Assembly (NCBI GenBank): GCA_947479815.1
Contig: CANKAT010000015.1
Coordinates: forward strand, 1-49,480
From: Sphingobacteriaceae bacterium
GTDB lineage: Bacteria; Bacteroidota; Bacteroidia; Sphingobacteriales; Sphingobacteriaceae
Direction: 5' to 3'
DNA length: 49,480 nucleotides
Part shown: piece after piece, positions 17,692 through 49,422 of the stretch
Layout: the number at the start of each line of letters is the position of its first letter
How positions within the stretch are numbered: the stretch's first letter is position 1
Notes under the pieces: generated by a model
Told to the model about the DNA's origin: nothing
What the model saw: only the letters and a program-made list of their open reading frames with translations
Databases searched by the model: none
Translations under genes and position numbers: made by a program

Positions 17692-17707
17692 TAAAAATAG
17701 CTGATAA

Positions 17708-17723
17708 TGTGATTGAGATCACA
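17708..17723. promoter_or_regulatory. CRP/FNR-type operator upstream of ccoI
   Basis: TGTGA-TTGAGA-TCACA, a perfect match to the classical CRP palindrome, with its centre about 64 bp before the ccoI ATG. A weak -7-like TCATTTCG follows at 17741-17748. Binding by one of the two Crp/Fnr-type regulators of the window is inferred. Confidence 0.7.
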
Positions 17724-17779
17724 AGTTTTAATAATCAGAGTCATTTCGCCAGACCTAAATTGAAGTGATTTTTGGTGGC

Positions 17780-20179
17780 ATGAATAATTCAGAAATTCAA
17801 GGCCAAGTTGAAATCTTAACGCAATGCTTTCATTGTGGTAATGACTGCATAGAAGATCAATTTCATTACGACGAAAGAAATTTTTGTTGTATTGGCTGCC
17901 AGAGTGTTTACACTATTCTTTCTGAAAATCAACTCTGTAATTATTATTCATATAACACTAATCCGGGGAAAACTCAAGATAGTAAATCGACACATTACGA
18001 TTATCTGGATGAACCTAAGATTGCTTCTTCTTTACTCGACTACGCTGACGAAAATGTAAGCATCATTACACTTTATATCCCAGCCATACATTGCAGTTCT
18101 TGTTTATGGTTACTAGAGCATTTATACAAGATCAATGCATCTATTATAAACTCACGCATCGATTTTCTGAAAAAACAGGTGGTGATCACGTTCAAACACA
18201 AGGAATTCTCTTTACGCGAACTTATCAGAATGCTTGCTGCAATTGGTTATGAACCGGTTATCAGTTTACAGGATGTGGTGAAAGAGCAGAATAAATTGTC
18301 TGACAGCGACATCATCAAAAAAATTGCGGTAGCAGGTTTCTGTTTTGGAAATGTGATGCTCTTAAGCTTTCCTGAATATTTTGGAATGGCAGCCTTTGAA
18401 CATCAGTTCAAAACGTTTTTTGGCTGGCTAAATCTTGCATTTGCCATTCCTGTAGTATTTTATAGTGGCCGCGACTATTTTATTTCTGCATGGAAAAATT
18501 TAAGGAATAAGGTTCTAAATCTTGATTTCCCTCTTGCATTAGGAATTGCAGTGATGTTCATCCGTTCAATCTATGAGATTGGGAGCGGTACTGGTGCCGG
18601 ATTTATAGATACGCTTTGCGGACTAGTTTTCTTTTTACTGATTGGCAAATGGGTTCAAGAGCGAACGTATCATCATTTATCTTTTGAACGCGATTATCGT
18701 TCATACTTTCCTGTGGCAGTTACTTTGATCAGTGAAGGAATTGAGAAACCTATCCCAATGGATGAACTAAAGGTTGGTAACCGTATCCTGATTCGTAATA
18801 ATGAGATTATACCTGCCGACACCATACTAATGAAAGGGGATGCTGTGATTGATTTTAGCTTTGTAACGGGCGAATCAGCACCAGTGCAAAAAATATTAGG
18901 TGAAATAGTTTATGCCGGAGGGCGACAAATTAATGAAGCCATTGAGCTTGAAGTGATCAAGCCTGTATCGCAAAGTTATTTAACCAGTCTTTGGAATAAT
19001 GAAGCATTTGAAGGAAATAAAAGAAAAATTGACACCTTCAGCGATACGATAAGCAGGTATTTCAGTATTGTGCTCTTAATTATTGCTTTTGGATCGGCAG
19101 CTTTCTGGATGTTTGATGATCGTGCCAAAGCATGGCAATCTCTAACAGCAGTCCTGATCATTGCCTGCCCATGTGCCTTGGCTCTCAGTTCGCCTTTTAC
19201 ATTATCAGCAGTACTCAGCATTTTTGATAAGAATAAATTCTATCTAAAAAATACGGCTGTAGTTGAGCAGATGGCGAAAATCAACACCCTTGTATTCGAT
19301 AAAACAGGTACCATAACTGCTCCTGAAGGTTTCCGAATCAGTTTTGAAGGCAATCTTAGCCATGAAGAACAATGTATGATCAGTTCATTGGCACGAAATT
19401 CAGGACATCCGCTGAGTAGGGAGCTAGTCAAGTGGATGAAAATCAATGAATATTTTACTGTCAGTTACTATCAGGAGATTCCCGGTAAAGGCATTGAAGG
19501 TTTAGTGAATAATAAAATGGTGAAAATTGGTAGTGCATCATTTATTAATATAAGATCAGAGAAGAAAGATACTGGAACCATTTATATTCAGATCGGCGAT
19601 CATTATGCCGGTTATTTCAGTTTCAGACAATGCTGGCGTCAGGGTTTAAAAGAGCTCTTCACTAAATTAGGAAACAAACTAAATATGCATTTACTTTCAG
19701 GAGACCAAGATTCTGAACGTGAATTTTTACTTCCGGCGTTCCCATGGGAAGATCAGATGCATTTCAACCAAAGTCCGCAAGATAAACTGAACTACATCTA
19801 TGCACTGCAGCAAAAAAACAATAAAGTAATGATGCTAGGCGATGGATTAAATGATGCAGGAGCACTCAAACAAAGTGATCTTGGAATTGCAGTTACTGAT
19901 AACATCAATAACTTCTCGCCAGGATGTGATGCCATACTGGATGGAGCAGGATTTGAAAAGCTTCCCAACTTTATTCAGCAGGCTAAAGATGCAATGAAAG
20001 TGATATATATCAGCTTTGGGATTTCAACATTATACAATACAGTGGGATTATACTTTGCTATGCAAGGCTCATTATCACCACTTTATGCAGCTATTTTGAT
20101 GCCATTAAGTACCATTACCATTATTTCATTTACCAGTACTGCAACACATTTATTTGCACGTAAAAACAAATTAACATGA
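17780..20179 (+). CDS. ccoI: cbb3-oxidase copper-transporting P1B ATPase CcoI
   Basis: Protein of 799 residues from ATG at 17780. A GTG 15 bp earlier is also in frame, but the ATG is the better start. The N-terminus has the CcoI/FixI metal-binding domain (CFHCGNDC, then CCIGC) and an HMA-like domain (HCSSC near 110). Then come the TGES loop, CPCALALSSP in the metal-selecting helix, DKTGT, and GDGLND. It supplies Cu to the binuclear centre of cbb3 oxidase. Its stop overlaps the ccoS start (ATGA), and it is the first gene of the ccoI-S-NO-Q-P run, behind a CRP-type operator. Confidence 0.93.
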   Translation: MNNSEIQGQVEILTQCFHCGNDCIEDQFHYDERNFCCIGCQSVYTILSENQLCNYYSYNTNPGKTQDSKSTHYDYLDEPKIASSLLDYADENVSIITLYIPAIHCSSCLWLLEHLYKINASIINSRIDFLKKQVVITFKHKEFSLRELIRMLAAIGYEPVISLQDVVKEQNKLSDSDIIKKIAVAGFCFGNVMLLSFPEYFGMAAFEHQFKTFFGWLNLAFAIPVVFYSGRDYFISAWKNLRNKVLNLDFPLALGIAVMFIRSIYEIGSGTGAGFIDTLCGLVFFLLIGKWVQERTYHHLSFERDYRSYFPVAVTLISEGIEKPIPMDELKVGNRILIRNNEIIPADTILMKGDAVIDFSFVTGESAPVQKILGEIVYAGGRQINEAIELEVIKPVSQSYLTSLWNNEAFEGNKRKIDTFSDTISRYFSIVLLIIAFGSAAFWMFDDRAKAWQSLTAVLIIACPCALALSSPFTLSAVLSIFDKNKFYLKNTAVVEQMAKINTLVFDKTGTITAPEGFRISFEGNLSHEEQCMISSLARNSGHPLSRELVKWMKINEYFTVSYYQEIPGKGIEGLVNNKMVKIGSASFINIRSEKKDTGTIYIQIGDHYAGYFSFRQCWRQGLKELFTKLGNKLNMHLLSGDQDSEREFLLPAFPWEDQMHFNQSPQDKLNYIYALQQKNNKVMMLGDGLNDAGALKQSDLGIAVTDNINNFSPGCDAILDGAGFEKLPNFIQQAKDAMKVIYISFGISTLYNTVGLYFAMQGSLSPLYAAILMPLSTITIISFTSTATHLFARKNKLT

Positions 20180-20337
20180 ACATCTTATACTTTCTGATCG
20201 GTTGCAGTGTGTTTTTAGCGCTTCTATTTCTACTTGCATTCTTTTGGGCCATGAAAAATGGACAGAATGAGGATACCTACACTCCAGCGGTAAGAATTCT
20301 ATTTGATGATGAACTACCAAATGAAAACAAAAAGTGA
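20176..20337 (+). CDS. ccoS: cbb3-type oxidase assembly protein CcoS
   Basis: Small 53-residue protein starting MNILYFLIGC. One membrane helix spans about 5-25 and ends in AFFWAMKNGQ, and the tail contains the DxxTPA element shared by CcoS proteins. The start overlaps the ccoI stop by 4 bp. It is required for cofactor insertion into cbb3 oxidase in other bacteria. Confidence 0.9.
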   Translation: MNILYFLIGCSVFLALLFLLAFFWAMKNGQNEDTYTPAVRILFDDELPNENKK

Positions 20338-20348
20338 CGAGAATCAGT
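20333..20348. promoter_or_regulatory. weak candidate TGA-N6-TCA operator before ccoNO
   Basis: AGTGA-CGAGAA-TCAGT, overlapping the ccoS stop codon. The core spacing fits, but the arms are short. A plausible -7 element TAGCTTTA lies at 20392-20399, farther away than at the better sites. It could support an internal ccoNO promoter. Confidence 0.25.
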
Positions 20349-20422
20349 TTTTAAAATAAGTTCTGTCACATCATTGTCAGGCCAGGCAAATTAGCTTTAC
20401 CTCATAAATAAAATCGTATTGT

Positions 20423-22558
<2,136 letters not shown>

Positions 22559-30042: not shown

Positions 30043-30069
30043 AAGCCGGGATCGATCTGGCCCGGCCTT
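30043..30069. terminator. bidirectional terminator hairpin
   Basis: GCCGGG (30045-30050) pairs with CCCGGC (30061-30066) between the convergent TauE/SafE and hemN genes, extended by AA/TT around a one-base bulge. On the minus strand it is followed by the U-rich TGACATTTTATTTTAG. Confidence 0.65.
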
Positions 30070-31432
30070 AACCCGCCATACTAAACAATTGCGCTTCAGG
30101 CTGTTCTGACCAAAGACGAACATCAAGGGTCATGCAAATATTTCTGAGGAATCGCTTGCCTAAAGGAGTTACAACAAGTCTGTTTTCAAGTATTTCTACT
30201 AAACCATCCTGTTCAAGCAATTTTGCTCTTTCAAGTCCGGCAATAAGTTCATCATTACCTGATAATGGAGTATCCCAATCTGTTCTGCCTGTGCACATCA
30301 AATTTAAAATATGCCTTCTTATCATTAAATCTACTTCTGTTAGATGATGTCCTTTAACTACAGGAAACTGGCCTTTGTTAATCATATCGTAATAATCTTC
30401 TACTTTTTTAACATTCTGGGCAAATGCAAACCAGCTATCACTAATGGATGAAACTCCCAAGCCAATCATTAGCTGGGTATACTGGTGGGTATAACCCATG
30501 AAATTACGATGCAGTTTGCCTGAACGTTCTGCTTTATATAGGCTATCAGTAGGTAATGCGAAATGGTCCATACCAATCTCCTGATAACCCATAGAGATAA
30601 ACATTTGGCGGCCCAATTCGTATAATTTTTGCTTTTCAATGACTGATGGCAAATCATCTTCAGTAAAACTTCTCTGTCCGGGTTTTATCCAGGGCACATG
30701 GGCATAGCTGTAAAAAGCAATCCGGTCGGGCAATAGCTTTTCTACCTGCAAAATGGTTTCTCCAAGACCTAATGAAGTTTGAAGCGGAAGCCCGTAGATT
30801 AGGTCAAAATTTATTGAGGTATATCCTATTTCTCTTGCAAGGATTGTAATTTTTTCAACCTGCTCAAAGCTTTGTACGCGATTTATGACCTTTTGAACTT
30901 TAGGGTCAAAGTCCTGAATTCCAAGGCTTAATCGGCGAAATCCAAGATTATACAAAGTAATAAGATGAGCTTCACTTGTATTGTTGGGATGGGCTTCAAA
31001 ACTAAATTCAGCATCAGAATGAAGTTCTGAACCATCCATTAATCCGTTGATCAATACATTCAGATTTGAAGCATCAAAAAAGGTAGGTGTACCACCGCCA
31101 AGATGAATCTCCCTGATTAAGGGTTTTTCGGCAAATACCTCCCGATAAAGATCCCATTCTTTTAAAATTGCCTGAATATAAGGATCTTCGACCTGGTGAT
31201 TCTTTGTAATTCTGGTATTACAACCACAATACGTACATAGACTTTCACAAAATGGCAAGTGAACATATAAACTTATGCCGTTACTTGCATTACTCTGATC
31301 GAATGAAAATTTAACAGATGTTTTCCATTTTTTAATATCAGGAGATTCAGCATCCCAATAAGGAACAGTAGGATAGCTGGTATAACGTGGTGCAGCCACG
31401 TGATATTTATTAATGAGTTGCTGCATGTTCAT
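30068..31432 (-). CDS. hemN: oxygen-independent coproporphyrinogen III oxidase
   Basis: Protein of 454 residues with the radical-SAM motif C-ESL-C-TY-C near residues 62-69 followed by GCN, and a HemN opening YHVAAPRYTSYP. Length matches true HemN rather than the shorter HemW. It makes protoporphyrinogen without O2, as needed for haem synthesis at low oxygen. It lies 32 bp after the LdhA-like gene on the same strand and probably shares its promoter and operator. An alternative ATG is at 31426. Confidence 0.92.
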   Translation of the reverse strand: MNMQQLINKYHVAAPRYTSYPTVPYWDAESPDIKKWKTSVKFSFDQSNASNGISLYVHLPFCESLCTYCGCNTRITKNHQVEDPYIQAILKEWDLYREVFAEKPLIREIHLGGGTPTFFDASNLNVLINGLMDGSELHSDAEFSFEAHPNNTSEAHLITLYNLGFRRLSLGIQDFDPKVQKVINRVQSFEQVEKITILAREIGYTSINFDLIYGLPLQTSLGLGETILQVEKLLPDRIAFYSYAHVPWIKPGQRSFTEDDLPSVIEKQKLYELGRQMFISMGYQEIGMDHFALPTDSLYKAERSGKLHRNFMGYTHQYTQLMIGLGVSSISDSWFAFAQNVKKVEDYYDMINKGQFPVVKGHHLTEVDLMIRRHILNLMCTGRTDWDTPLSGNDELIAGLERAKLLEQDGLVEILENRLVVTPLGKRFLRNICMTLDVRLWSEQPEAQLFSMAG

Positions 31433-31464: not shown

Positions 31465-32469
31465 TCAATTTTTTTTACATCCATCAACACAGATACATGC
31501 TTTTCCTGAACATTTACCTTCATGCCAGTTGTCCAGATTTTTGATGGTAAGATTTGCAATTTCTTGTAAAGCTTCTTTAGTTAAAAAAGCCTGATGTGGA
31601 GAAACTATGACATTGGGATAAGAAATTAGCTCTTTAAGAATTGCATCTTTATTTTCGTCATTTCTGTGATCATTAAAAAACAGACTCTTTTCAAACTCAT
31701 ACCCATCCAAACCGAGATAAGCAATTTTTCTGCTTTTAAGTGCTTTCAGCAATTCAGCAGTTTTTATCAATTCGCCACTTCCGGTATTAATCAGCATAAC
31801 ACCATCCTTCATCTTAGCCAGACTTTGATTATTGATGAGATGCCTGGTATCGGGGTTTAACGCAACATGTAAGGAAATAATATCCGACTCAGCAAGCAGC
31901 TGGTCTAGGTCTCTTGTTTCCACACCATTCAGAAATTCCGGATACTGCTTATCATAACTAATCACCTTGCATCCCAAGCCTTTATAAATGGCTGCTGTTG
32001 CCTGTCCAACATGGCCAAGGCCTATAATACCGACTGTTTTTTTGAAAAAACTGAATCCAATATGTTGATCTATTCTGAAATCAAATTCTCTTGTGCTATT
32101 TACAGTCGATACAATTTTTCGGCTCAACGACAAGGCCAGCATAACTGCATACTCAGCAATTGATTGAGGCGAAAAAGATGGAACATTTGCCAGTTTTATT
32201 TTCCTTAAAGCTGCAGCATTCCTATTGATATGGTCTGTTTCTAATGAACGGGTGGCAATATATTTTATACCAAGGTCTGCCAGTTTATTAATAACGGCTT
32301 CAGAAACATCATCATTTGTAAAAACAATAACTGCCTCTTTTCCCTCTGCATACATAGCAGTGTCAAGGCTTAGAGGATTAGAAATTAACGTAATATCGTG
32401 TTGCTTTTTATTAGCACGAGCCAAAAATTCCTTTTCAAATTCTTTGATACTGTAGGCAACAACTTTCAT
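31465..32469 (-). CDS. LdhA-like D-2-hydroxyacid dehydrogenase with altered active site and Cys tail
   Basis: About 334 residues from the ATG at 32469. An ATG at 32490 is also in frame, but the inner one fits LdhA N-termini and leaves room for the promoter. GLGHVG lies at 150-155. Family residues Glu260 (YEFEKSLFF) and His292 (PHQAFLTKEAL) are present. The Arg of the usual NTSRG motif is Ser231 in NTGSG (codon AGT at 31777-31779). The C-terminus adds Cys residues 320, 325, 327 and 331 (C-x4-C-x-C-x3-C). It resembles fermentative D-lactate dehydrogenase, but the missing Arg makes activity or substrate uncertain. Confidence 0.8.
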   Translation of the reverse strand: MKVVAYSIKEFEKEFLARANKKQHDITLISNPLSLDTAMYAEGKEAVIVFTNDDVSEAVINKLADLGIKYIATRSLETDHINRNAAALRKIKLANVPSFSPQSIAEYAVMLALSLSRKIVSTVNSTREFDFRIDQHIGFSFFKKTVGIIGLGHVGQATAAIYKGLGCKVISYDKQYPEFLNGVETRDLDQLLAESDIISLHVALNPDTRHLINNQSLAKMKDGVMLINTGSGELIKTAELLKALKSRKIAYLGLDGYEFEKSLFFNDHRNDENKDAILKELISYPNVIVSPHQAFLTKEALQEIANLTIKNLDNWHEGKCSGKACICVDGCKKN

Positions 32470-32516
32470 TCTATTATAGCTATTCTCCAAAAATAGAATT
32501 CGGAAAGGCTATTTGT

Positions 32517-32532
32517 AATGAGTGAAGTCATG
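32517..32532 (-). promoter_or_regulatory. CRP/FNR-type operator of the ldhA-like/hemN unit
   Basis: AATGA-GTGAAG-TCATG, with its centre 55 bp before the ATG at 32469. On the minus strand a perfect Bacteroidota -7 element TATTTTTG occupies 32495-32488, whose last base is 36.5 bp from the operator centre. This is class II activator geometry. Confidence 0.65.
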
Positions 32533-32549
32533 TAGAAAAATGATCTTTG

Positions 32550-33608
32550 TCAGTTTTTCATCTTTAGGAGTTTCGATTGATCAATAATATGGATCACACT
32601 GCCCTTTTTTTCGATAATTCCCTCATCCTTAAAATCACTTAAAGTACGGCTTACGGTTTCTGTTGCCATTCCGGCCATGGATGCAAGGTCTTCTCTTGAA
32701 ATCCGGATTTGGGATTCTCCAACAGAATCCTGATGAATTTTAGTAAGACGGATTAGGATTTCAGCCATACGCTTTCGTACAGAATGGTACGCGAGCTGCA
32801 GCAATTGCTCTTCTTTTTCAATGAGGTTACTAGAAATTACTTTAATAAACTTCTGACCAACATCTGTATAATTATCAAGCAATTGTTTGACAATATCCTT
32901 AGGAAGGAGACAAATGGTGGTATCTTCAGTTGCTTCTACAGTTTCATTATAATGATCACCAGACAACATCGCCTGGATTCCGAGATATTCTTCTGATCCA
33001 TACATTCCGGTTACAAGTTCTCGCCCATCTTCATTTAACTTGATAGCCTTAACTCGACCACTTAGAATCAAATAAATGCCTGTTATAGAATCTCCTTCAT
33101 AATAAATTATCTGTTTTTTTCTAACCAGCTTAACTTTTCGGTCGGCTATAACTTTTTTCAGTTCATCTAATCCATGATTCTGATTTGCAAGCAGTTTTAG
33201 ACTTTCGTATGATTGGCTGTAAAAAGATTCTAATTTCTGCTTTTTGTGAAATCGTGATTCAATGGCATTAAGCAATTCCATATCGTCAAATGGCTTGGTC
33301 AAATAATCATCAGCTCCCATTTCCATACCTTTTCTGATATCAGACCGCTCTGCCTTGGCAGTAAGAAAAATAAATGGAATATTTCCAGTATTCTGATTTT
33401 TTGAAAGTAGATACAAAACCCCGTAACCATCAAGCTCGGGCATCATAATATCGCAGAGGATCATATCCGGAAAATGTTGTTGGGCAAGTTCTACTCCTAA
33501 TTTGCCATTTTCTGCTTGTAGTACTTCATAACCTGCTAGTTCCAGAATTTCCATTGAACTTTCTCTGATATCTTCATTATCCTCAATAATTAGAATTTTT
33601 TTCTTCAT
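32550..33608 (-). CDS. response regulator fused to a Crp/Fnr DNA-binding module
   Basis: Protein of 352 residues. Residues 1-120 form a receiver domain (acidic EDNED near 9-13, phospho-acceptor Asp53 in CDIMMPELDG, conserved Lys in TKPFDD). About 150-270 is a cNMP-binding-like jelly roll (YYEGDSITGIYLILSGRVKA), and the C-terminus is an HTH_Crp. The cAMP-contact residues of CRP are not conserved (LGIQAMLSGDHYNETVEA), so cAMP is unlikely. The recognition helix is TETVSRTLSDF, with Glu317, Ser320 and Arg321 in the positions of FNR Glu209, Ser212 and Arg213. It starts 6 bp after the kinase gene. This build merges FixJ-like and FixK-like roles in one chain. Confidence 0.88.
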   Translation of the reverse strand: MKKKILIIEDNEDIRESSMEILELAGYEVLQAENGKLGVELAQQHFPDMILCDIMMPELDGYGVLYLLSKNQNTGNIPFIFLTAKAERSDIRKGMEMGADDYLTKPFDDMELLNAIESRFHKKQKLESFYSQSYESLKLLANQNHGLDELKKVIADRKVKLVRKKQIIYYEGDSITGIYLILSGRVKAIKLNEDGRELVTGMYGSEEYLGIQAMLSGDHYNETVEATEDTTICLLPKDIVKQLLDNYTDVGQKFIKVISSNLIEKEEQLLQLAYHSVRKRMAEILIRLTKIHQDSVGESQIRISREDLASMAGMATETVSRTLSDFKDEGIIEKKGSVIHIIDQSKLLKMKN

Positions 33609-33614
33609 AAAAAT

Positions 33615-34802
33615 TTACTGTGGAAAATTTAGTGTAAATACAGTTTTCTGATTAACAAGGCTTTTAAAGTCTACTTTACCACCCATAAGATTAACGTATC
33701 GAAGAATTATATTCAATCCTAATCCGGTACCCGGTATGTTGCCGGTATTATTTGCTCTGAAAAAAGGCTCAAATAGGTGTTTATGATCAATTTCTGGAAT
33801 ACCAATGCCATTGTCGCGAACTGTTATAGTACATTCGGTATCTGTAAGTTCGGTATTAAATTCAATGAATGTATTTTCACCAGAGTATTTTATTGAATTT
33901 GAAATCAGATTAATAATACAATTTCGAAGCAAATTCTGATCAAGCAAAACCATACTATGCAAACCTGTATGCTGGTAAATGATATTTTGATCTTTCTTAG
34001 CCATTAACTGCATTTCTTCGGTAATCTCTTCAGCAAGTTTAACCATATCGAACTTAGAGAAATTAGTTTCGATTTTTCCTGCCTCCAAACGCTCCAATGA
34101 AAGGAAATCATCCAAAATGGTAGTTAGATTTCCAACTGAATTTTTGATTTTACCAACATGTTTACTAACGTTGGTGTAGTCTGACTGCAATTTATACTTT
34201 TCAATCAGCGAGGCCGAAAGCTGAATGGAGCTCAGTGGTGTTCGAAATTCATGAGAAGCCATCGATACAAATCTGCTTTTAAGCTGGTTGAGCTCTATTT
34301 CTTTTTCGAGTGATTTACTGACTGTCTCTTTTGCTGCTTGAAGTTCAGTTACCGATTTTTGCAAGGAATTGGTTCGCTCTTCAACCAATTTTTCAAGTTG
34401 AGATGCATAATGAAGTATCTTTGATTCTGCTTCTTTCTCTTTAGAAAGGTCATGAATAAATCCAGCATAAATAGTTCTTCCTGAATACTTTACTTCATTT
34501 ACTCCCAAACGGAATGGAAATAAAGTACCATCCTTTTTTTGTCCGTTAACATCTCGACCTTTACCAATGATATGAGGACTACCAGTTCTTTGAAAGCGTG
34601 CAATATATTCATCATGCTGATCTTTATCAGGCCTGGGCATAAGCATTGAAACATTTCTGCCAATTACTTCCTCTATTGAATACCCAAATAAGGCACATGC
34701 AGCGGGATTTATTGACTCTATCAAACCGCGCTCATCAATAGTTATAATACCATCAATTGCGTTTTCTATAATAGCATACAATAAAGCACTCTTTTCAGTC
34801 AT
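33615..34802 (-). CDS. fixL: soluble PAS histidine kinase with FixL-type haem site (predicted O2 sensor)
   Basis: Protein of 395 residues without membrane segments. A PAS domain spans about 5-120. Its HDEYIARF and SPHIIGKGR segments match FixL: His63 aligns with the haem ligand His200 of Bradyrhizobium FixL, His77 with His214, Ile78 with Ile215 and Arg83 with Arg220, with identical spacing. A coiled linker (122-175), HisKA with His184 (ASHEFRTP) and an HATPase (N-, GIGI- and GTGLGL boxes) follow. It is predicted to sense O2 through haem and phosphorylate the receiver-Crp protein encoded 6 bp downstream. It lacks the N-terminal membrane region of rhizobial FixL from Sinorhizobium. Confidence 0.88.
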   Translation of the reverse strand: MTEKSALLYAIIENAIDGIITIDERGLIESINPAACALFGYSIEEVIGRNVSMLMPRPDKDQHDEYIARFQRTGSPHIIGKGRDVNGQKKDGTLFPFRLGVNEVKYSGRTIYAGFIHDLSKEKEAESKILHYASQLEKLVEERTNSLQKSVTELQAAKETVSKSLEKEIELNQLKSRFVSMASHEFRTPLSSIQLSASLIEKYKLQSDYTNVSKHVGKIKNSVGNLTTILDDFLSLERLEAGKIETNFSKFDMVKLAEEITEEMQLMAKKDQNIIYQHTGLHSMVLLDQNLLRNCIINLISNSIKYSGENTFIEFNTELTDTECTITVRDNGIGIPEIDHKHLFEPFFRANNTGNIPGTGLGLNIILRYVNLMGGKVDFKSLVNQKTVFTLNFPQ

Positions 34803-38571: not shown

Positions 38572-38593
38572 TTCTTGAGTCATTTTTTATATA

Positions 38594-38609
38594 TGTGACT
38601 TCTGTCATA
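38594..38609 (+). promoter_or_regulatory. CRP/FNR-type operator upstream of the 595-residue protein
   Basis: TGTGA-CTTCTG-TCATA, with its centre about 68 bp before the ATG at 38670. A -7-like TTATTTG lies at 38632-38638, its G 36.5 bp from the operator centre, the same distance as at the ldhA-like promoter. Confidence 0.6.
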
Positions 38610-38669
38610 TTTTAAGAGCTCTTTAATACCCTTATTTGCACTCGTGATTTTAACCTATTTAAAATTTTC

Positions 38670-40457
38670 ATGAGTCATACATTTCATATTCCTGTTCTCG
38701 GGCTAGCCTATTCTGTAGATACCCCAGTAAAAGTAGCTCGTTATGGTATCAGTTCTGTTGTTTCAATAGTAGATGATATATTAATTGAACGCATGCGTCA
38801 ATTCTATACTGAAAAACGCAAGGAGACATTTGTACCCATAAATCCTAAAGAGATCGATTTTAGAAGCAAACGAATTACTGCCTACCTCAATCTCATAAAA
38901 AAGATTGTTGATGAACAGTTTGAAAATCTGAAAAAGCAATCTTTTGATGATGGTACAGACCTGAACAGATATTTTAAATTATTACCTGACACATCACCCT
39001 TGAAAAGCAAATATCAGCAGATGCTTTCCAAACAAGACCGCGTAGTAGTTGCTGCATTGCAACAGGAATTGCTAAATGAAATGGAAAAGGGTGAAATTCA
39101 GGTAAATATAATGGCTAAGGTTGACCGGATGAATCCGGATACCAATGGTGAGCAACTTTCAGACTCCCTATCGGCATTGAAAGGTTTTGCTGAAAGTAAT
39201 ATAAACTCTGCAGTAGTATTATCGGCAGGAATGAATCCACGACTTTACGGTTACTTAGAAAACTTTGCAGACTTTCTTCCTGATCAGTCAGGAAAATTTA
39301 AAAAAAGCGTCATTTTAAAGGTCAGCGATTTCAGATCGGCACTTATCCAAGCTAAATTTCTTGCAAAAAAAGGTATTTGGGTATCCGAGTTCAGAATTGA
39401 ATCTGGACTTAATTGCGGTGGTCATGCTTTCGCTACCGAAGGCTACCTACTTGGTCCGATTCTGGAGGAGTTTAAGCTGAAAAAACAGGAGATGATTAAT
39501 GAGCTCTATGAAATGTATGGAAAGGCAATACTTGAAAAAGGCATTGAATTAAACCAAGCGCCAAAGATGAAAATCAGCGTTCAGGGAGGTATTGGAACTG
39601 CCCATGAAAATAATTTCCTGATGGAACATTATCAATTAGACGCTACTGGATGGGGAAGTCCATTTTTACTGGTACCTGAAGCCACAAACGTAGATGAGGA
39701 AACATTAGAACTGCTTGCAAAAGCATGCAAGGATGACTTTTATATCAGTAGTTCATCGCCCTTGGGAATTCCATTTAATAATTTCAGTAAAAGCACATCA
39801 GAAATACAAAGGCTAGAACGGATTGCCAAAGGCAGACCCGGTAGCCCTTGCGTAAAGAAATACCTGTCCACGAATACAGAGTTTACCGAACTACCAATCT
39901 GTACAGCCTCAAGAGAATACCAAAATTTGAAGATCAAACAGTTGAAATCTGAAGGTTTAGAGCCTGGGGCTTTTCAGACAAAATTCGATGAGATAACTGA
40001 AAAGATATGCCTTTGTGAAGGCCTTGCAGCACCAGCATACTTAAAAAATGGTATTTTAAAGCCTAAAGAAATCAGAGCTGTAGCTATTTGTCCGGGACCG
40101 AACATAGCCTATTTCAGTGGGAAGTTCTCACTTGATGAAATGGTAAGTCATATTTATGGCAAGCTCAACTTATTGAATGATAACGACCGTCCAAACCTAT
40201 TTGTAAATGAACTGAATCTTTATGTGGAGTACCTCAAAAAAGATATCAACAAGCATTTACAGGACATGAGTGATAAAAAAGCTAAATACGTTTCAAAATT
40301 TAAAGAGCAGCTACAGGTAGGAATCGATTATTACAAACAACTTGTTCCAAAAATCACCAACCAAACTGAAGTTTACAGAAAGAAAATGCTAAATGAACTC
40401 AAAGAAATTGAAGAACAATTGCTGCAATTAAACCCGGTCGTAAATCAAGAAATATAA
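38670..40457 (+). CDS. unrecognised 595-residue protein, predicted low-oxygen-controlled
   Basis: I do not recognise the family. The start HIPVLGLAYSVDTPVKVARYGISSVVSIVDD and the alternation of strands and Gly-rich turns (ESGLNCGGHAFATEG near 245, VQGGIGTAHEN near 305, GWGSPFLLVPE near 328) suggest a TIM-barrel enzyme, perhaps flavin-binding. Four conserved-looking Cys occur in SPCVKKYL, PICTASREY and KICLCEGL (about 390-452) and could bind a metal or Fe-S cluster. The C-terminus (about 510-595) is a charged helical or coiled-coil tail. No signal peptide, so cytosolic. Its operator ties it to the respiratory island. Confidence 0.85.
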   Translation: MSHTFHIPVLGLAYSVDTPVKVARYGISSVVSIVDDILIERMRQFYTEKRKETFVPINPKEIDFRSKRITAYLNLIKKIVDEQFENLKKQSFDDGTDLNRYFKLLPDTSPLKSKYQQMLSKQDRVVVAALQQELLNEMEKGEIQVNIMAKVDRMNPDTNGEQLSDSLSALKGFAESNINSAVVLSAGMNPRLYGYLENFADFLPDQSGKFKKSVILKVSDFRSALIQAKFLAKKGIWVSEFRIESGLNCGGHAFATEGYLLGPILEEFKLKKQEMINELYEMYGKAILEKGIELNQAPKMKISVQGGIGTAHENNFLMEHYQLDATGWGSPFLLVPEATNVDEETLELLAKACKDDFYISSSSPLGIPFNNFSKSTSEIQRLERIAKGRPGSPCVKKYLSTNTEFTELPICTASREYQNLKIKQLKSEGLEPGAFQTKFDEITEKICLCEGLAAPAYLKNGILKPKEIRAVAICPGPNIAYFSGKFSLDEMVSHIYGKLNLLNDNDRPNLFVNELNLYVEYLKKDINKHLQDMSDKKAKYVSKFKEQLQVGIDYYKQLVPKITNQTEVYRKKMLNELKEIEEQLLQLNPVVNQEI

Positions 40458-40550
40458 CAGAAATCTGAATCAGGTTAAGCCGAATAGCCAAAACACATTG
40501 ACAACCAATTTTTTTTGATTAAAATATTATAATTAATTCATTATTAGGTA

Positions 40551-40575
40551 TTTATTAAAATATAATTTTAATAAA
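40551..40575. repeat. 11-bp perfect AT-only inverted repeat
   Basis: TTTATTAAAAT, loop ATA, ATTTTAATAAA, in the 211-bp gap before the fasciclin gene. It may be a weak terminator for the upstream gene or an AT-rich promoter element. Confidence 0.5.
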
Positions 40576-40598
40576 ATATTCACGAAAAACGCTCCGAC

Positions 40599-40614
40599 TA
40601 TGATTGCAATCATA
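40599..40614 (+). promoter_or_regulatory. CRP/FNR-type operator upstream of the fasciclin gene
   Basis: TATGA-TTGCAA-TCATA, a perfect 16-bp palindrome with its centre 62 bp before the ATG. The -7 element TAATTTGT lies at 40636-40643, its G 35.5 bp from the operator centre. Confidence 0.7.
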
Positions 40615-40668
40615 TAATTAAGAGAATTTAATGGATAATTTGTATGATAATAAAAAAAAAATAAAATT

Positions 40669-41229
40669 ATGAGAAAGATCTTTTTAGCTACATCATTGAT
40701 CTGTATTTCAATGCTAATGAGCTGTGAAAACAGTACGAAACAGTCTGCTGAAACAGAGGGCAGTACAGAAGCAATTGCGACCGGGCAATCTGGAGTTCAG
40801 GATGAGCTGTCGCAAAAAAATGTTGTTCAGGTTGCTATTGGGAGCAAAGACCACAGCACATTAGTTACCGCTATTCAAGCTGCTGAATTAGTAGACGCAT
40901 TAAGTAATGCTGGTCCATTTACAGTGTTTGCTCCTACCAATGCAGCATTCAATAAATTACCTGCCGGAACAGTAGAAAGTTTATTAAAACCGGAAAGCAA
41001 AGATGCCCTGGCCAATATTCTGCAGTACCATGTTTCACTTGGTGTATTTAAAGCTGAGAGTTTTACCGACGGACAAGTAATTGGTCAAGTAAACGGTAAT
41101 GACATCACTATGAGTGTTAAGGATGGAAAAGTAATGGTCAATGGGGCAAAAATTGTAGCCTCAGTACCGGCATCAAATGGTATTATACATGTAATTGACG
41201 GGGTACTATTACCACCTGCAGCCAAATAA
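40669..41229 (+). CDS. fasciclin-domain lipoprotein
   Basis: Protein of 186 residues. A lipobox LMSC places Cys19 at the mature N-terminus, a low-complexity Ser/Thr/Glu linker runs to about 55, and one FAS1 domain follows (STLVTAIQAAELVDAL, GPFTVFAPTNAAFNKLP, NGIIHVIDGVLLPP). FAS1 proteins mediate adhesion or bind surface ligands. It is monocistronic, under a perfect operator. Its role in a low-oxygen regulon is not obvious. Confidence 0.9.
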   Translation: MRKIFLATSLICISMLMSCENSTKQSAETEGSTEAIATGQSGVQDELSQKNVVQVAIGSKDHSTLVTAIQAAELVDALSNAGPFTVFAPTNAAFNKLPAGTVESLLKPESKDALANILQYHVSLGVFKAESFTDGQVIGQVNGNDITMSVKDGKVMVNGAKIVASVPASNGIIHVIDGVLLPPAAK

Positions 41230-41332: not shown

Positions 41333-41731
41333 TTATTTTTGAATTTTTAGTTTTTTTTGATATTCCTGAATATTTTCACTGATTATACCCGAAATTTTTA
41401 ATGCACGTTCTTTGGCAAGATCTGCTTTTGATCCTTTAAACAATTCATTAACTGTTCTTACGAATAAGGTATTCCAACGATTAAAATGTGTTTTATTTAG
41501 TGGTTGAATACGATTAAGGTGTTTATGAAGATTTATTGGATTGCCTTCATAAGTCCCGGTAAATAGAATAGCATTTTCCCAGAAATTGTACATGATCAGA
41601 AAATGAGTTGACCAGTTCAGGAGTGCCACATTATTAAAAATATAGCCCAGCTTTTTATCGGCTTTTACTTTTCTGTAGAACGTATTAACCAATAGCTCAA
41701 TATCTTTCCGGTTTTCAATATCCTTTTTCAA
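41333..41731 (-). CDS. group III truncated haemoglobin
   Basis: Protein of 132 residues. The opening IELLVNTFYRKVKADKKLGYIF, the central FWENAILFTGTYEGNP and the proximal His82 in THFNRW are typical of TrHb3. It is the last gene of the nos run, 4 bp after the hemerythrin gene. A likely role is O2 or NO binding or NO scavenging during N2O respiration. Confidence 0.9.
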   Translation of the reverse strand: MKKDIENRKDIELLVNTFYRKVKADKKLGYIFNNVALLNWSTHFLIMYNFWENAILFTGTYEGNPINLHKHLNRIQPLNKTHFNRWNTLFVRTVNELFKGSKADLAKERALKISGIISENIQEYQKKLKIQK

Positions 41732-41735
41732 TTAG

Positions 41736-42173
41736 CTATGTAGATAAAATCATTCCAATGGCATTCAATACGTGCTCAGTGCAGTTCTCTTGAATTAGGC
41801 AGAATAGTTGCCTTTCCTCCTTGCGGATGTGTAATTCCAGATCTTTACCTAATTGGTTCAGATGAACAGCCAGGTTATCCTGATTATTTATTGAATTAAA
41901 ACTGACATGAAAACGATCGTGCTCCTCCAAAATTTCTATGATTAGAACATCTATCTCTGAATTTAAACCTTTAACCAGAGTTAAAATTTTTTCTTCAGCA
42001 CTAAAATGTGCGATCAATATATTTTTATAAAATTCCTGTGCATATACAGCCTTTCCATTAATTTCAAGAGGAAGACCTTTGTATGGTGGGGCATCCTTTT
42101 GAATTAATCTGGCGAGTATCAATGCGCCGTGATGCTCTCTAGAAAGAGGTATTAATGCAGGATGCCTTTTCAT
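41736..42173 (-). CDS. hemerythrin HHE-domain protein
   Basis: About 145 residues from the ATG at 42173, just after the nosY stop; the longer frame to 42245 has no sensible N-terminus. Di-iron ligands can be placed at His14 or His15, His56 with Glu60 (HFSAEE), His85 (EEHDRF) and His115 with Glu119 or Glu120 (HIRKEE). Such proteins bind O2 or NO, or repair iron centres. It is embedded between nosY and the globin gene. Confidence 0.85.
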   Translation of the reverse strand: MKRHPALIPLSREHHGALILARLIQKDAPPYKGLPLEINGKAVYAQEFYKNILIAHFSAEEKILTLVKGLNSEIDVLIIEILEEHDRFHVSFNSINNQDNLAVHLNQLGKDLELHIRKEERQLFCLIQENCTEHVLNAIGMILST

Positions 42174-42174
42174 A

Positions 42175-42942
42175 TTAAAGGTCTTTAGAATTAAATTTTC
42201 TAGTAGAATACCAGACCGGTAATAGGATCCAGGACAACAATACAAAAAAAGAAAACATTAATCCAGTTGAGGTTCCAAAGAAGTCTTTGAAAACTGCACC
42301 AGTATATCCCATCATGGCAGACACATCGAGCTGCAATAGAATTAGGATTCGGCTTAAATCTATAGGATTAAGAGTACTTAAAGCGATCATTGGCTTTTCC
42401 AAAGGATAATCTGCAAACTGGAATAATAAAAACAAAACCAATCCATCGAATAACAATGAAAAATATAACCATAGCATAATTGCTGCTCCAATTCCTTTTG
42501 CTTTATCCCGCATTTTAACTGTTGCAAGAAAAGCGATGGCAGCAAAAATAATACTAAGAATTATTCCAGTAAGGATCATCGTAAAACCTATCCAATTTGC
42601 CTGATAGATCAGAACCGGTATCCCTACACCAATAAAAAATGCTATGGAAAGCGAGCATGCAAGACCCATAAATAAGCTGAGCCAGATTGTCCTTCTTTTG
42701 AGCGGCTGACTAACCAGCAGTTCAATAAACTCAACAGAATTATACATATAAATAGTAGAAAAAATAATGCTCACAAGCGGCACCACAATCAGAATAATAT
42801 TCAATAGGCTTAACAATCCCTTGCTGTTATTATCTTCCAGACTAAATACACTAAAGGATGCTACAAGCAAAAAACCAGTGTAGATTACCACGATTTTATT
42901 TCGAAGAATATCTGTAATTACGTATTTTATTATCTTATTCAT
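42175..42942 (-). CDS. nosY: nitrous oxide reductase maturation ABC permease NosY
   Basis: Protein of 255 residues with about six membrane helices. It has the ABC-2 permease arrangement and an N-terminus (YVITDILRNKIVVIYTGFLL) usual for NosY. It overlaps nosF by 8 bp. With NosF and NosD it forms the transporter that supplies sulfur, and indirectly copper, for the CuZ centre of NosZ. Confidence 0.9.
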   Translation of the reverse strand: MNKIIKYVITDILRNKIVVIYTGFLLVASFSVFSLEDNNSKGLLSLLNIILIVVPLVSIIFSTIYMYNSVEFIELLVSQPLKRRTIWLSLFMGLACSLSIAFFIGVGIPVLIYQANWIGFTMILTGIILSIIFAAIAFLATVKMRDKAKGIGAAIMLWLYFSLLFDGLVLFLLFQFADYPLEKPMIALSTLNPIDLSRILILLQLDVSAMMGYTGAVFKDFFGTSTGLMFSFFVLLSWILLPVWYSTRKFNSKDL

Positions 42943-48630: not shown

Positions 48631-48710
48631 TTTACCAGATTTAGATTAAGAATAAATTTGTTGTACAAGTTTAGATAAGACCTGAAAATCATTTTATGCG
48701 TTCAATCATA

Positions 48711-48726
48711 AATGATAAATGTCATT
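48711..48726. promoter_or_regulatory. CRP/FNR-type operator shared by the nos operon and the Crp/Fnr gene
   Basis: AATGA-TAAATG-TCATT with perfectly symmetrical arms. Its centre is 62 bp before the ATG of the Crp/Fnr gene, identical to the fasciclin promoter, and a -7-like TAATTTAG lies at 48747-48754. On the other strand a weaker TGATTTTC faces the cytochrome c gene. It could drive both genes. Confidence 0.65.
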
Positions 48727-48780
48727 TAATTAAATAAGCAGAGTCATAATTTAGAATTCATACCCAACTTAATTTTGTTT

Positions 48781-49422
48781 ATGAATTTTACATCTCAGGA
48801 TATGATAGATATTAACTTATTACTTGCTTATGGTGCAACCTATAAGAAAGTTGGCGTGAATGAAACCGTCTTTACTGAAGGCCAGCAATGCAGTTATTAT
48901 TATCAAATTGTAAGCGGTACAATCAGATGGCTGAACATTGATGAAGACGGCAGAGAATGCATCCATTATATTGCCGAGTGTGGCGAATCATTTGGAGAAT
49001 TTCCTCTTTTTGATGATGGCCCATATGCCGCTTCGGCTATTGCAAATTCAGAGTCAATACTGATCAGGCTCTACAAACCCGTATTTCTAGATTTATTAAA
49101 TGAAAAGAATAAACTTTTATTTGAATTTACCCGCTTACTAACAAAAAGATTGCGATTTAAATATTCTGTAATTAAGTCTTTTGGTTCAAATTGTCCTCAG
49201 GAAAGAATCATCAATCTTTTAAAAAATCTAAAGTCAGAAAATAAGAATTATTGCGCTGAATTTGATCAATTAAAATTGACCAGACAGCAGATTGCAGACA
49301 TGACTGGGCTTAGGGTAGAGACCGTTATCCGAACCATGCGTCAAATGCATACAAAAGGTGATATAATAATTTCTAGAGGAAAAGTCTTTTGTAAGGATAT
49401 GACCGAAATCATAATGGCTTAA
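48781..49422 (+). CDS. Crp/Fnr family transcriptional regulator
   Basis: About 213 residues from the ATG at 48781; a TTG at 48775 is in frame but less likely. A cNMP-like jelly roll (VFTEGQQCSYYYQIVSGTIRWL) is followed by a helix-turn-helix with recognition segment LRVETVIRTM (Glu180, Ile183, Arg184). The four Cys of FNR are absent, so no O2-labile Fe-S cluster is expected. CRP's cAMP contacts are not clearly present. Its position beside nosZ suggests a DNR/NnrR-like nitrogen-oxide regulator. It may be controlled by the other regulator, or by itself, through 48711-48726. After 49422 I see nothing to the window end. Confidence 0.88.
   Translation: MNFTSQDMIDINLLLAYGATYKKVGVNETVFTEGQQCSYYYQIVSGTIRWLNIDEDGRECIHYIAECGESFGEFPLFDDGPYAASAIANSESILIRLYKPVFLDLLNEKNKLLFEFTRLLTKRLRFKYSVIKSFGSNCPQERIINLLKNLKSENKNYCAEFDQLKLTRQQIADMTGLRVETVIRTMRQMHTKGDIIISRGKVFCKDMTEIIMA

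Follow-up and report, generated by a model that had tools for sequence, protein, structure and literature searches.

A 49,480-nucleotide stretch of DNA from a Sphingobacteriaceae bacterium (assembly GCA_947479815.1, contig CANKAT010000015.1; hereafter the window) carries a gene for a soluble, FixL-like sensor kinase followed directly by a gene for REC-Crp, a response regulator in which a receiver domain is fused to a Crp/Fnr-type DNA-binding module. In other bacteria, the switch to low oxygen depends on a further round of gene expression or on a separate Fe-S sensor. The composition of the two proteins, their conservation as a pair, and the promoters found near them indicate that the pair is probably, here and in many relatives, a cytoplasmic oxygen-sensing two-component system, with REC-Crp as a class II activator of low-oxygen genes.

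The kinase (395 residues) contains PAS (residues 8-118), HisKA (175-242), and HATPase_c (288-394) domains, each above its Pfam cut-off. Its top match among solved structures is the PAS domain of FixL (1dp6, E 1.4e-30), and the alignment places its His63, His77, Ile78, and Arg83 on what we take to be His200, His214, Ile215, and Arg220 of FixL. Thus, the proximal His and distal Arg of the haem pocket (FixL positions 200 and 220) are both present, together with Ile215. The predicted model of the kinase has a pLDDT of 82 (residues 71-80 average 65), and its PAS domain superposes on FixL 8js5 at ~2.0 Å with 40% identity. His63 and Arg83 are invariant across 43 kinases (set A2), which comprise the window kinase and 42 of the 47 listed; among those omitted, the kinases of loci L009, L014, and L069 retain both residues, and those of L011 and L049 lack the His. 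(The latter two belong to the FixL-type clade and have a Tyr and a Gln, respectively, at the His200 position, but are still paired with a REC-Crp.) A 19-residue scan of the kinase, which is a crude test, revealed no usual membrane helix, the maximum Kyte-Doolittle mean being 1.2. An earlier note on this DNA had proposed both the FixL-type haem-PAS residues and the lack of a membrane anchor, and these results bear out both proposals. However, the kinase scores 160.5 bits against the NCBIfam model for rhizobial FixL (NF041777), whose cut-off is 850, and it is therefore called FixL-like rather than FixL. It probably senses oxygen through a FixL-type haem-PAS domain.

The REC-Crp gene begins 6 bp downstream on the same minus strand and encodes 352 residues with REC (4-116), cNMP_binding (161-246), and HTH_Crp_2 (279-348) domains, again all above their Pfam cut-offs; the coordinates of the two open reading frames, the gap, and the fusion of an intact receiver to a Crp/Fnr module are as the earlier note had them. 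Asp53, the phospho-acceptor of the receiver, is retained in 106 of 106 aligned relatives, as are Asp10 and Lys105; position 9 is E (104) or D (2), and position 83 is T (104) or S (2). Having such an active site and sharing an operon with a kinase gene, the protein classifies as a response regulator. Its output has the cNMP-type fold and the Crp helix-turn-helix of the Crp-Fnr superfamily and is nearest to FNR, and FNR 5cvr is the best structural match of the modelled Crp half (2.3 Å). The protein differs from the one-component FixK and FNR in having an N-terminal receiver, and it does not have the FNR cysteine set, its visible cysteines being Cys52 and a single one within the cNMP domain. In the predicted model (pLDDT 89), the receiver leads through a long helix into the Crp half; pTM values of 0.53 and 0.56 for the kinase and REC-Crp models leave the arrangement of the domains unsettled.

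The receiver itself has PleD/PhoB-type proteins as its top curated matches, with no FixJ model among the best 25 of its 111 matches, and the LuxR-type DNA-binding domain of FixJ is replaced by cNMP_binding and HTH_Crp_2. The earlier note had described the pair as a collapsed FixL-FixJ-FixK cascade. This description holds only in part: no link by descent to FixJ was seen, so that the pair looks like an independent assembly, and one of the predicted targets is itself a Crp gene (see below).

Kinase/REC-Crp pairs are widespread in Bacteroidota. A scan of 395 genomes of the phylum (match cut-off 1e-40, five candidates scored per genome) gave matches in 63, of which 7 were receiver-only, so that at least 56 genomes have a full-length REC-Crp. 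Because a REC-Crp could be missed when five candidates are scored, the 42 match-free genomes of the same class (but not the 297 outside the class) were rechecked with the Crp half alone, and none of the listed places fell in an open frame longer than 278 residues, compared with ~350 for REC-Crp. Among the best 80 of 582 relatives from a scan of 84,980 species genomes, the named organisms are Bacteroidota except for one record titled Azovibrio restrictus (L105); this record has a Bacteroidota-type kinase and REC-Crp locus and is perhaps a mis-binned contig. The kinase gene lies directly beside the REC-Crp gene in 107 of 110 loci, a count that includes the window (L001) and a duplicate (L078 = L003), and likewise in 21 of 26 additional stretches, and the recurrence of related pairs across the phylum argues that the pairing is more than chance.

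The partner kinases are of two types: type A, with a FixL-like PAS domain, and type B, whose PAS domain mostly lacks the Ile-Gly-x-Gly-Arg motif of FixL. A FixL-type partner is thus seen in only part of the family. In a quick tree of 106 REC-Crp proteins, the recognition helix ET[VI]SR marks one clade of 46 rows, and the remaining rows mostly have partners without the FixL motif. Within this clade, L039 has an intact haem pocket but a kinase that is cut short, and L011 and L049 are the kinases without the haem His; FixL-like kinases outside it occur in L019, L071, L085, L090, G162, and G178 (G denoting genomes), and L028 has the Ser in its recognition helix, yet a type B kinase. Type B recognition helices are ESLIR/ETVIR-like. 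Given that most type B kinases retain a His at the proximal position, they may also hold haem. The covariation between FixL-like kinases and the helix Ser (44 pairs with both, 55 with neither, and 4 + 4 mixed among 107 pairs, one of them a duplicate) was considered as evidence for specificity and rejected: the Ser needs just two changes on the quick tree, which points to shared descent, and independent pairs give no support.

Insight into the DNA sites came from the regions upstream of genes in related loci. The ETVSR helix had suggested the classical FNR box TTGAT-N4-ATCAA as the main site. This candidate was rejected, since in type A relatives it is far weaker than another form: AAGTGAT-N4-ATCACTT is present with ≤2 mismatches in 20 of 160 type A upstream regions (11 of the 160 come from the window), where 1.2 are expected, and with ≤3 mismatches in 47 (expected 4.2), whereas AATTGATN4ATCAATT is present in 4 (expected 1.4) and 37 (expected 12.2), respectively. 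In the window, TTGAT-N4-ATCAA with ≤1 mismatch occurs 12 times against a shuffle mean of 6.7, and 5 of 100 shuffles reach 12. When AAVTGAY-N4-RTCABTT (≤1 mismatch) is counted in L031-L110, which excludes the window, the dyad precedes ldhA in 11 of 11 type A cases and ccoNO in 8 of 9; for the kinase gene the counts are 11 of 29 in type A and 10 of 44 in type B, and for ccoI 2 of 11 in type B.

The dyad, TGAY-N4-RTCA, is part of a tandem architecture in which a second site (often a half-site) and a -7 box follow at fixed spacing. When distances are measured from the dyad centre, 33 of the 81 type A sites in L031-L110 have the box TAnnTTTG starting at offset 51, with any other offset seen once at most; the TCA of the second site is found at +26 in 46 of the 81, and a full second TGA-N6-TCA in 21. 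FNR and CRP act at class II promoters from a site at -41.5. Because the -7 box of Flavobacterium psychrophilum occupies positions -12 to -5 (PMC9723704), the two sites would be centred at ~-63.5 and ~-41.5. With a site at ~-41.5 relative to TAnnTTTG at -12 to -5, these would thus be class II promoters. Of 39 type B sites, 13 have the box (≤1 mismatch) at offset 29 and 7 have it at offset 51, which suggests that a single site at -41.5 is the commoner type B form.

The spacing learnt on L031-L110 (L031 being a close relative) was then applied to the window. Within the whole assembly (3,195,242 bases in 157 contigs), the tandem pattern with ≤1 mismatch occurs 4 times and its reversed control not at all, and all four occurrences are inside the window, upstream of ccoI, ccoNO, ldhA-hemN, and crp2 (see Table). 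In 200 dinucleotide-shuffled windows, the mean is 0.005 and the maximum 1. If these promoters are right, three of the genes have listed first start codons that lie too early. For ldhA, the ATG at 32469 is probably the translation start rather than the TTG at 32490, as it fits better with the predicted transcription start; likewise, the real starts of ccoI and crp2 are probably the ATGs at 17780 and 48802 rather than 17765 and 48775. The hemN gene is probably in one operon with ldhA. The ccoI promoter is the weakest of the four, because its box has a mismatch, its start would fall 1 base before the proposed ATG, and its dyad is missing in relatives.

Table. The kinase/REC-Crp pair, the predicted tandem promoters, and the putative target genes in the window
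Feature	Coordinates	Strand	Remarks
Sensor kinase, soluble PAS-HisKA-HATPase	33615-34802	-	FixL-type haem-pocket motif His63, His77, Ile78, Arg83; phospho-acceptor His184
REC-Crp response regulator	32550-33608	-	Receiver (Asp53), long helix 109-140, Crp/Fnr-like module, recognition helix ETVSR
ldhA-hemN promoter, predicted distal dyad	32538-32555	-	AACTGACAAAGATCATTT; centre ~-63.5; overlaps 3' end of REC-Crp gene
ldhA-hemN promoter, predicted second site	32519-32530	-	TGACTTCACTCA; centre ~-41.5
ldhA-hemN promoter, predicted -7 box	32488-32495	-	TATTTTTG; predicted transcription start 32483
ldhA, D-2-hydroxyacid dehydrogenase, predicted target	31465-32490	-	Best matched by D-lactate dehydrogenase models, without reaching their cut-offs
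hemN, oxygen-independent coproporphyrinogen III oxidase	30068-31432	-	32 bp behind ldhA
ccoNO promoter, predicted distal dyad	20332-20349	+	AAGTGACGAGAATCAGTT; one of two perfect AASTGAYN4RTCASTT sites in the assembly
ccoNO promoter, predicted half-site	20357-20368	+	TAAGTTCTGTCA; ~-41.5
ccoNO promoter, predicted -7 box	20392-20399	+	TAGCTTTA; one mismatch
Fused ccoNO, cbb3 oxidase subunits I/II, predicted target	20423-22558	+	
ccoI promoter, predicted	17707-17774	+	Dyad ATGTGATTGAGATCACAA 17707-17724; half-site TAATCAGAGTCA 17732-17743; -7 box GATTTTTG 17767-17774 (one mismatch)
P-type ATPase adjoining ccoNO (ccoI by position), possible target	17765-20179	+	
crp2 promoter, predicted	48710-48777	+	Dyad AAATGATAAATGTCATTT 48710-48727; half-site TAAGCAGAGTCA 48735-48746; -7 box TAATTTTG 48770-48777
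crp2, stand-alone Crp/Fnr regulator near nosZ, predicted target	48775-49422	+	

From these parts, their pairing, and the promoters and their rarity, we infer haem binding, the direction of the oxygen effect, phosphotransfer, dimer switching, and the identity of the binding protein as follows. At high oxygen, the haem of the PAS domain would hold the kinase off, as in FixL. When oxygen falls, the kinase would autophosphorylate on His184 and pass the phosphate to Asp53 of REC-Crp, by analogy with FixL and the kinase families. The phosphorylated receiver, joined by the long helix to the Crp module, would then favour a DNA-binding dimer, and this dimer would occupy the tandem dyads and activate from the class II position. 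In the window, the targets would be ccoNO, ldhA-hemN, and crp2, and less surely ccoI. Consequently, the cbb3 and haem genes would be switched by phosphorylation with no transcribed middle regulator, and crp2 would form a second tier, perhaps for nos. The idea in the earlier note that phosphorylation would switch the Crp-type activator directly is well supported: it agrees with the FixL-type motif, the adjacent REC-Crp, a Crp half that shows no sign of a further signal input, and the conserved class-II-like promoters at ccoNO and ldhA-hemN (that at ccoI being weaker). The removal of the transcriptional middle step stands only in part, as the crp2 arm would keep a second tier.

The pair had also been placed among plausible targets (cco, hemN, and nos). 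For much of this list the curated models agree, naming ccoNO, ccoG, hemN, nosZ, and nosD above their cut-offs; however, ccoP falls short of its cut-off, and ccoI passes that for P-type ATPases in general but not those for heavy-metal and copper ATPases. In 80 named loci of unequal length (≤21 kb; 33 type A and 47 type B by recognition helix), ccoNO is found in 13 type A and 15 type B loci, hemN in 22 and 6, and a D-lactate-type dehydrogenase in 19 and 0. REC-Crp lies ≤25 kb from ccoNO in 23 of the 47 genomes in which both places are listed; by an estimate from genome size, a random gene would do so in roughly 1% of genomes.

Control of REC-Crp by something other than an oxygen-dependent phosphate has to be weighed. 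The PAS domain might be a FixL relative that no longer senses oxygen by haem and instead reads redox or another ligand, with the regulator still controlling low-oxygen genes. Such a change would have precedent in the haem-ligand-free relatives L011 and L049 and in the type B kinases, which lack the FixL motif and yet have REC-Crp genes that are also near cco. We consider it unlikely for the window kinase, which retains the pocket residues that we take from FixL and whose predicted PAS domain superposes on that of FixL at ~2.0 Å. Alternatively, since the cNMP_binding fold of REC-Crp is intact, a small molecule at this domain might still control the protein, with phosphorylation just modulating it. 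This is highly improbable. In a by-eye alignment to the cAMP-holding residues of CRP, which we take to be the GEL glutamate and the RS arginine, 98 of 106 proteins have Y, I, V, or F in place of the glutamate and 102 of 106 have E or D in place of the arginine (counts that a one-column shift would change), and, as noted above, the FNR cysteine set is absent.

The presence of crp2 among the predicted targets allows another arrangement, in which REC-Crp would only switch on crp2 and Crp2 would bind the cco and ldhA promoters, giving a true FixL-FixJ-FixK-like relay. The exact tandem promoter at crp2 is kept before its relatives in Daejeonella lutea (L070) and G002 (C1:3833367-3833431, before 3833464); the top NCBIfam match of Crp2 is FixK, although far under the cut-off; its recognition helix (VETVIR) has the Glu and Arg; and a Crp2-like protein with E ≤ 1e-20 occurs in 9 of the 15 remaining type A genomes. 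Nevertheless, in 6 of 16 type A genomes (G122, G099, G214, G261, G359, and G379) no Crp2-like protein better than 1e-14 was found, and all six of these have a dyad with a -7 box and five have the exact tandem promoter. This makes the relay very unlikely and favours REC-Crp over Crp2 as the protein that binds. Two profiles find three Crp/Fnr proteins in the assembly (REC-Crp, Crp2, and one without the recognition-helix Glu), which has one FixL-like PAS domain. In G122, from the same genus, REC-Crp is the sole Crp protein found by two Crp queries, and the genome has a perfect dyad before ccoNO (L126) as well as a tandem promoter.

Several observations weigh against direct activation of the low-oxygen genes by REC-Crp. 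In this genome, Crp2 could bind the same sites, and no site was found before the kinase gene in the window. In type A relatives, the dyad precedes ccoI in 0 of 5 cases, ccoG in 0 of 14, ccoP in 0 of 12, and hemN, in its own upstream region, in 1 of 18; in type B relatives, it precedes ccoNO in only 1 of 15. It is also seen before other genes (49 of 359 in type A loci and 24 of 527 in type B loci). In family f4, which its place among named rows of the tree suggests is Flavobacterium-like, only 2 of the 17 listed genomes have REC-Crp near ccoNO, the other 15 having it elsewhere, and a Crp protein with four Cys residues often stands near ccoNO instead. Furthermore, 10 of the 42 same-class genomes without REC-Crp have the exact tandem promoter (15 matches, 1 in the reversed control), and the looser combination of dyad and -7 box occurs 29 times in these 42 genomes (control 7). 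The dyad was thus rejected as proof of REC-Crp binding, given that TGAY-N4-RTCA also precedes ccoNO in genomes without REC-Crp.

In a comparison of ccoNO upstream regions from 80 of the genomes with ccoNO, AAVTGAYN4RTCABTT (≤1 mismatch) is present in 11 of 40 with REC-Crp (expected 0.2), in 2 of 21 same-class genomes without it, and in 0 of 19 from other classes. When the exact tandem promoter was counted in the 395 genomes (groups tallied by hand, total 46), it was found in 15 of 16 type A genomes (25 matches, 0 controls), in 15 of the 40 other REC-Crp genomes (38 and 0), whose recognition helices, 14 read in the 110 loci and 26 in the further stretches, place none of them in the ET[VI]SR clade, and in 6 of 297 genomes outside the class (14 and 1). 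The corresponding hand tallies of matches and controls for dyad plus -7 box are 37 and 1 for type A and 46 and 7 for other REC-Crp genomes. Two genomes outside the class, G271 and G306 (family f47), have 4 and 6 exact tandem promoters, and REC-Crp is absent from both in the 1e-40 scan with its five scored candidates.

A stand-alone Crp gene lies ≤10 kb from ccoNO in 17 of 21 genomes that lack REC-Crp and have both places listed (for G273, the second-best place). Many of the encoded proteins have Cys at positions matching 4, 7, 53, and 106 of L218, through which they presumably sense oxygen directly. Outside f4, and with f3 left out, this four-Cys protein is present in 8 of 8 ccoNO-bearing same-class genomes without REC-Crp versus 4 of 30 with it (Fisher p 1e-5, which ignores relatedness). 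Family f3 has 7 genomes without REC-Crp, in which 0 of 4 inspected proteins have the four-Cys set, and one with REC-Crp (G210); in f4, most genomes with REC-Crp also have the four-Cys protein. All 8 genomes of f2 and f8 that have the four-Cys protein and lack REC-Crp have the tandem promoter, and they are among the 10 same-class genomes counted above. An exchange of sensors is contradicted in part by other Crp types. A second Cys-bearing type (C8, C13, C16, C107) is present in the REC-Crp genomes G033, G091, G099, G214, G261, G379, and G391, and another in G088 and G312; other Cys-bearing types occur in at least 7 of the 30 REC-Crp genomes. Since these proteins may sense oxygen too, the exchange amounts to a tendency only. 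It is conceivable, though we advance it tentatively and with somewhat less belief than doubt, that Bacteroidota share one low-oxygen promoter code (the tandem sites with their fixed -7 box) driven by interchangeable four-Cys FNR-like or REC-Crp activators, the sensor having been swapped while the promoters were kept, and that the REC-Crp of Daejeonella-like bacteria also commands a second Crp, maybe for N2O respiration.

Other genes of the window and its relatives carry similar sites. A 595-residue protein encoded at 38670-40457 has no Pfam or NCBIfam match and is preceded, ~60 bp upstream, by TGACTTCTGTCA (38593-38610); its homologues, identified by sight in L042, L053, L068, L069, L074, and L087, also have a dyad upstream, and it may be an uncharacterised low-oxygen gene. 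The nos cluster is separated from the genes at 38670-41229 by the genes for a hemerythrin-domain protein (41736-42245) and for a small protein with no Pfam match (41333-41731). The second perfect AASTGAYN4RTCASTT site of the assembly (G000 contig C6:11004-11021, L111) is 96 bp before the gene for a YceI-domain protein, and YceI-like genes with tandem promoters are also present in L036 and L042. In the Flavobacterium-like loci L008-L010, L013, L014, and L055, REC-Crp is followed by genes that by sight are Hsp20-like, ATP-cone-like, or metallo-beta-lactamase-like, and universal-stress-like genes in other type A loci have the dyad, a pattern reminiscent of a regulon for dormancy or hypoxia. On another contig of the assembly (G000 contig C76:11872-11967), the C-terminal 32 residues of Crp2 are found again with 97% identity, which reflects either a partial duplicate or overlapping contigs.

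Gene control at low oxygen has been described well for Proteobacteria, but little was found for Bacteroidota, a phylum abundant in soil, water, and animals. The circuit predicted here is testable and consists of a sensor, a phosphorylated Crp-type activator, a promoter geometry, and a set of targets that includes the cbb3 oxidase, haem synthesis, a lactate-type dehydrogenase, and a second regulator. If true, phosphorylation would govern a member of a family that is usually switched by bound small molecules or metal clusters. In addition, the apparent exchange with the four-Cys Crp protein makes the replacement of a sensor under a fixed promoter code open to experiment. A search of the open-access literature found no REC-Crp regulator or FixL-like kinase in Bacteroidota, and the REC-Crp architecture may well be catalogued already.

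Like FixL-FixJ-FixK of rhizobia and Caulobacter, the system would pair a FixL-type haem-PAS kinase with low-oxygen control through a Crp/Fnr-type activator. However, receiver and Crp activator are here in one protein, the receiver is not FixJ-like, there is no LuxR-type output, the kinase is soluble, and the dyad mostly has G, C, or A rather than T before TGA. Judged by its sequence, the system is a variant form of oxygen control by two components and falls outside FixLJ-K, because the kinase misses the NCBIfam FixL model and the receiver is not FixJ-like. A FixL-type kinase that works with a non-FixJ regulator is known from hFixL-FxkR-FixK of Rhizobium etli and R. leguminosarum, but there FxkR is reported to act by inducing fixK (PMC4999443, PMC7888657), whereas the regulator described here has a Crp output of its own. 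FNR (the 5cvr group) is the nearest solved relative of the Crp half of REC-Crp and has in common with it the Glu-x-x-Ser-Arg recognition helix and the -41.5 promoter position; REC-Crp differs in lacking the cysteine set, in taking its signal through a receiver, and in having a predicted site other than TTGAT-N4-ATCAA. The stand-alone four-Cys Crp/Fnr proteins of other Bacteroidota, such as that of L218, go with the same tandem promoter but have no receiver. Finally, the type B kinase/REC-Crp pairs have the same operon design and kind of site and are often near cco, and they are set apart from the window pair by a PAS domain that mostly lacks the FixL motif and by their ESLIR/ETVIR-like helix.

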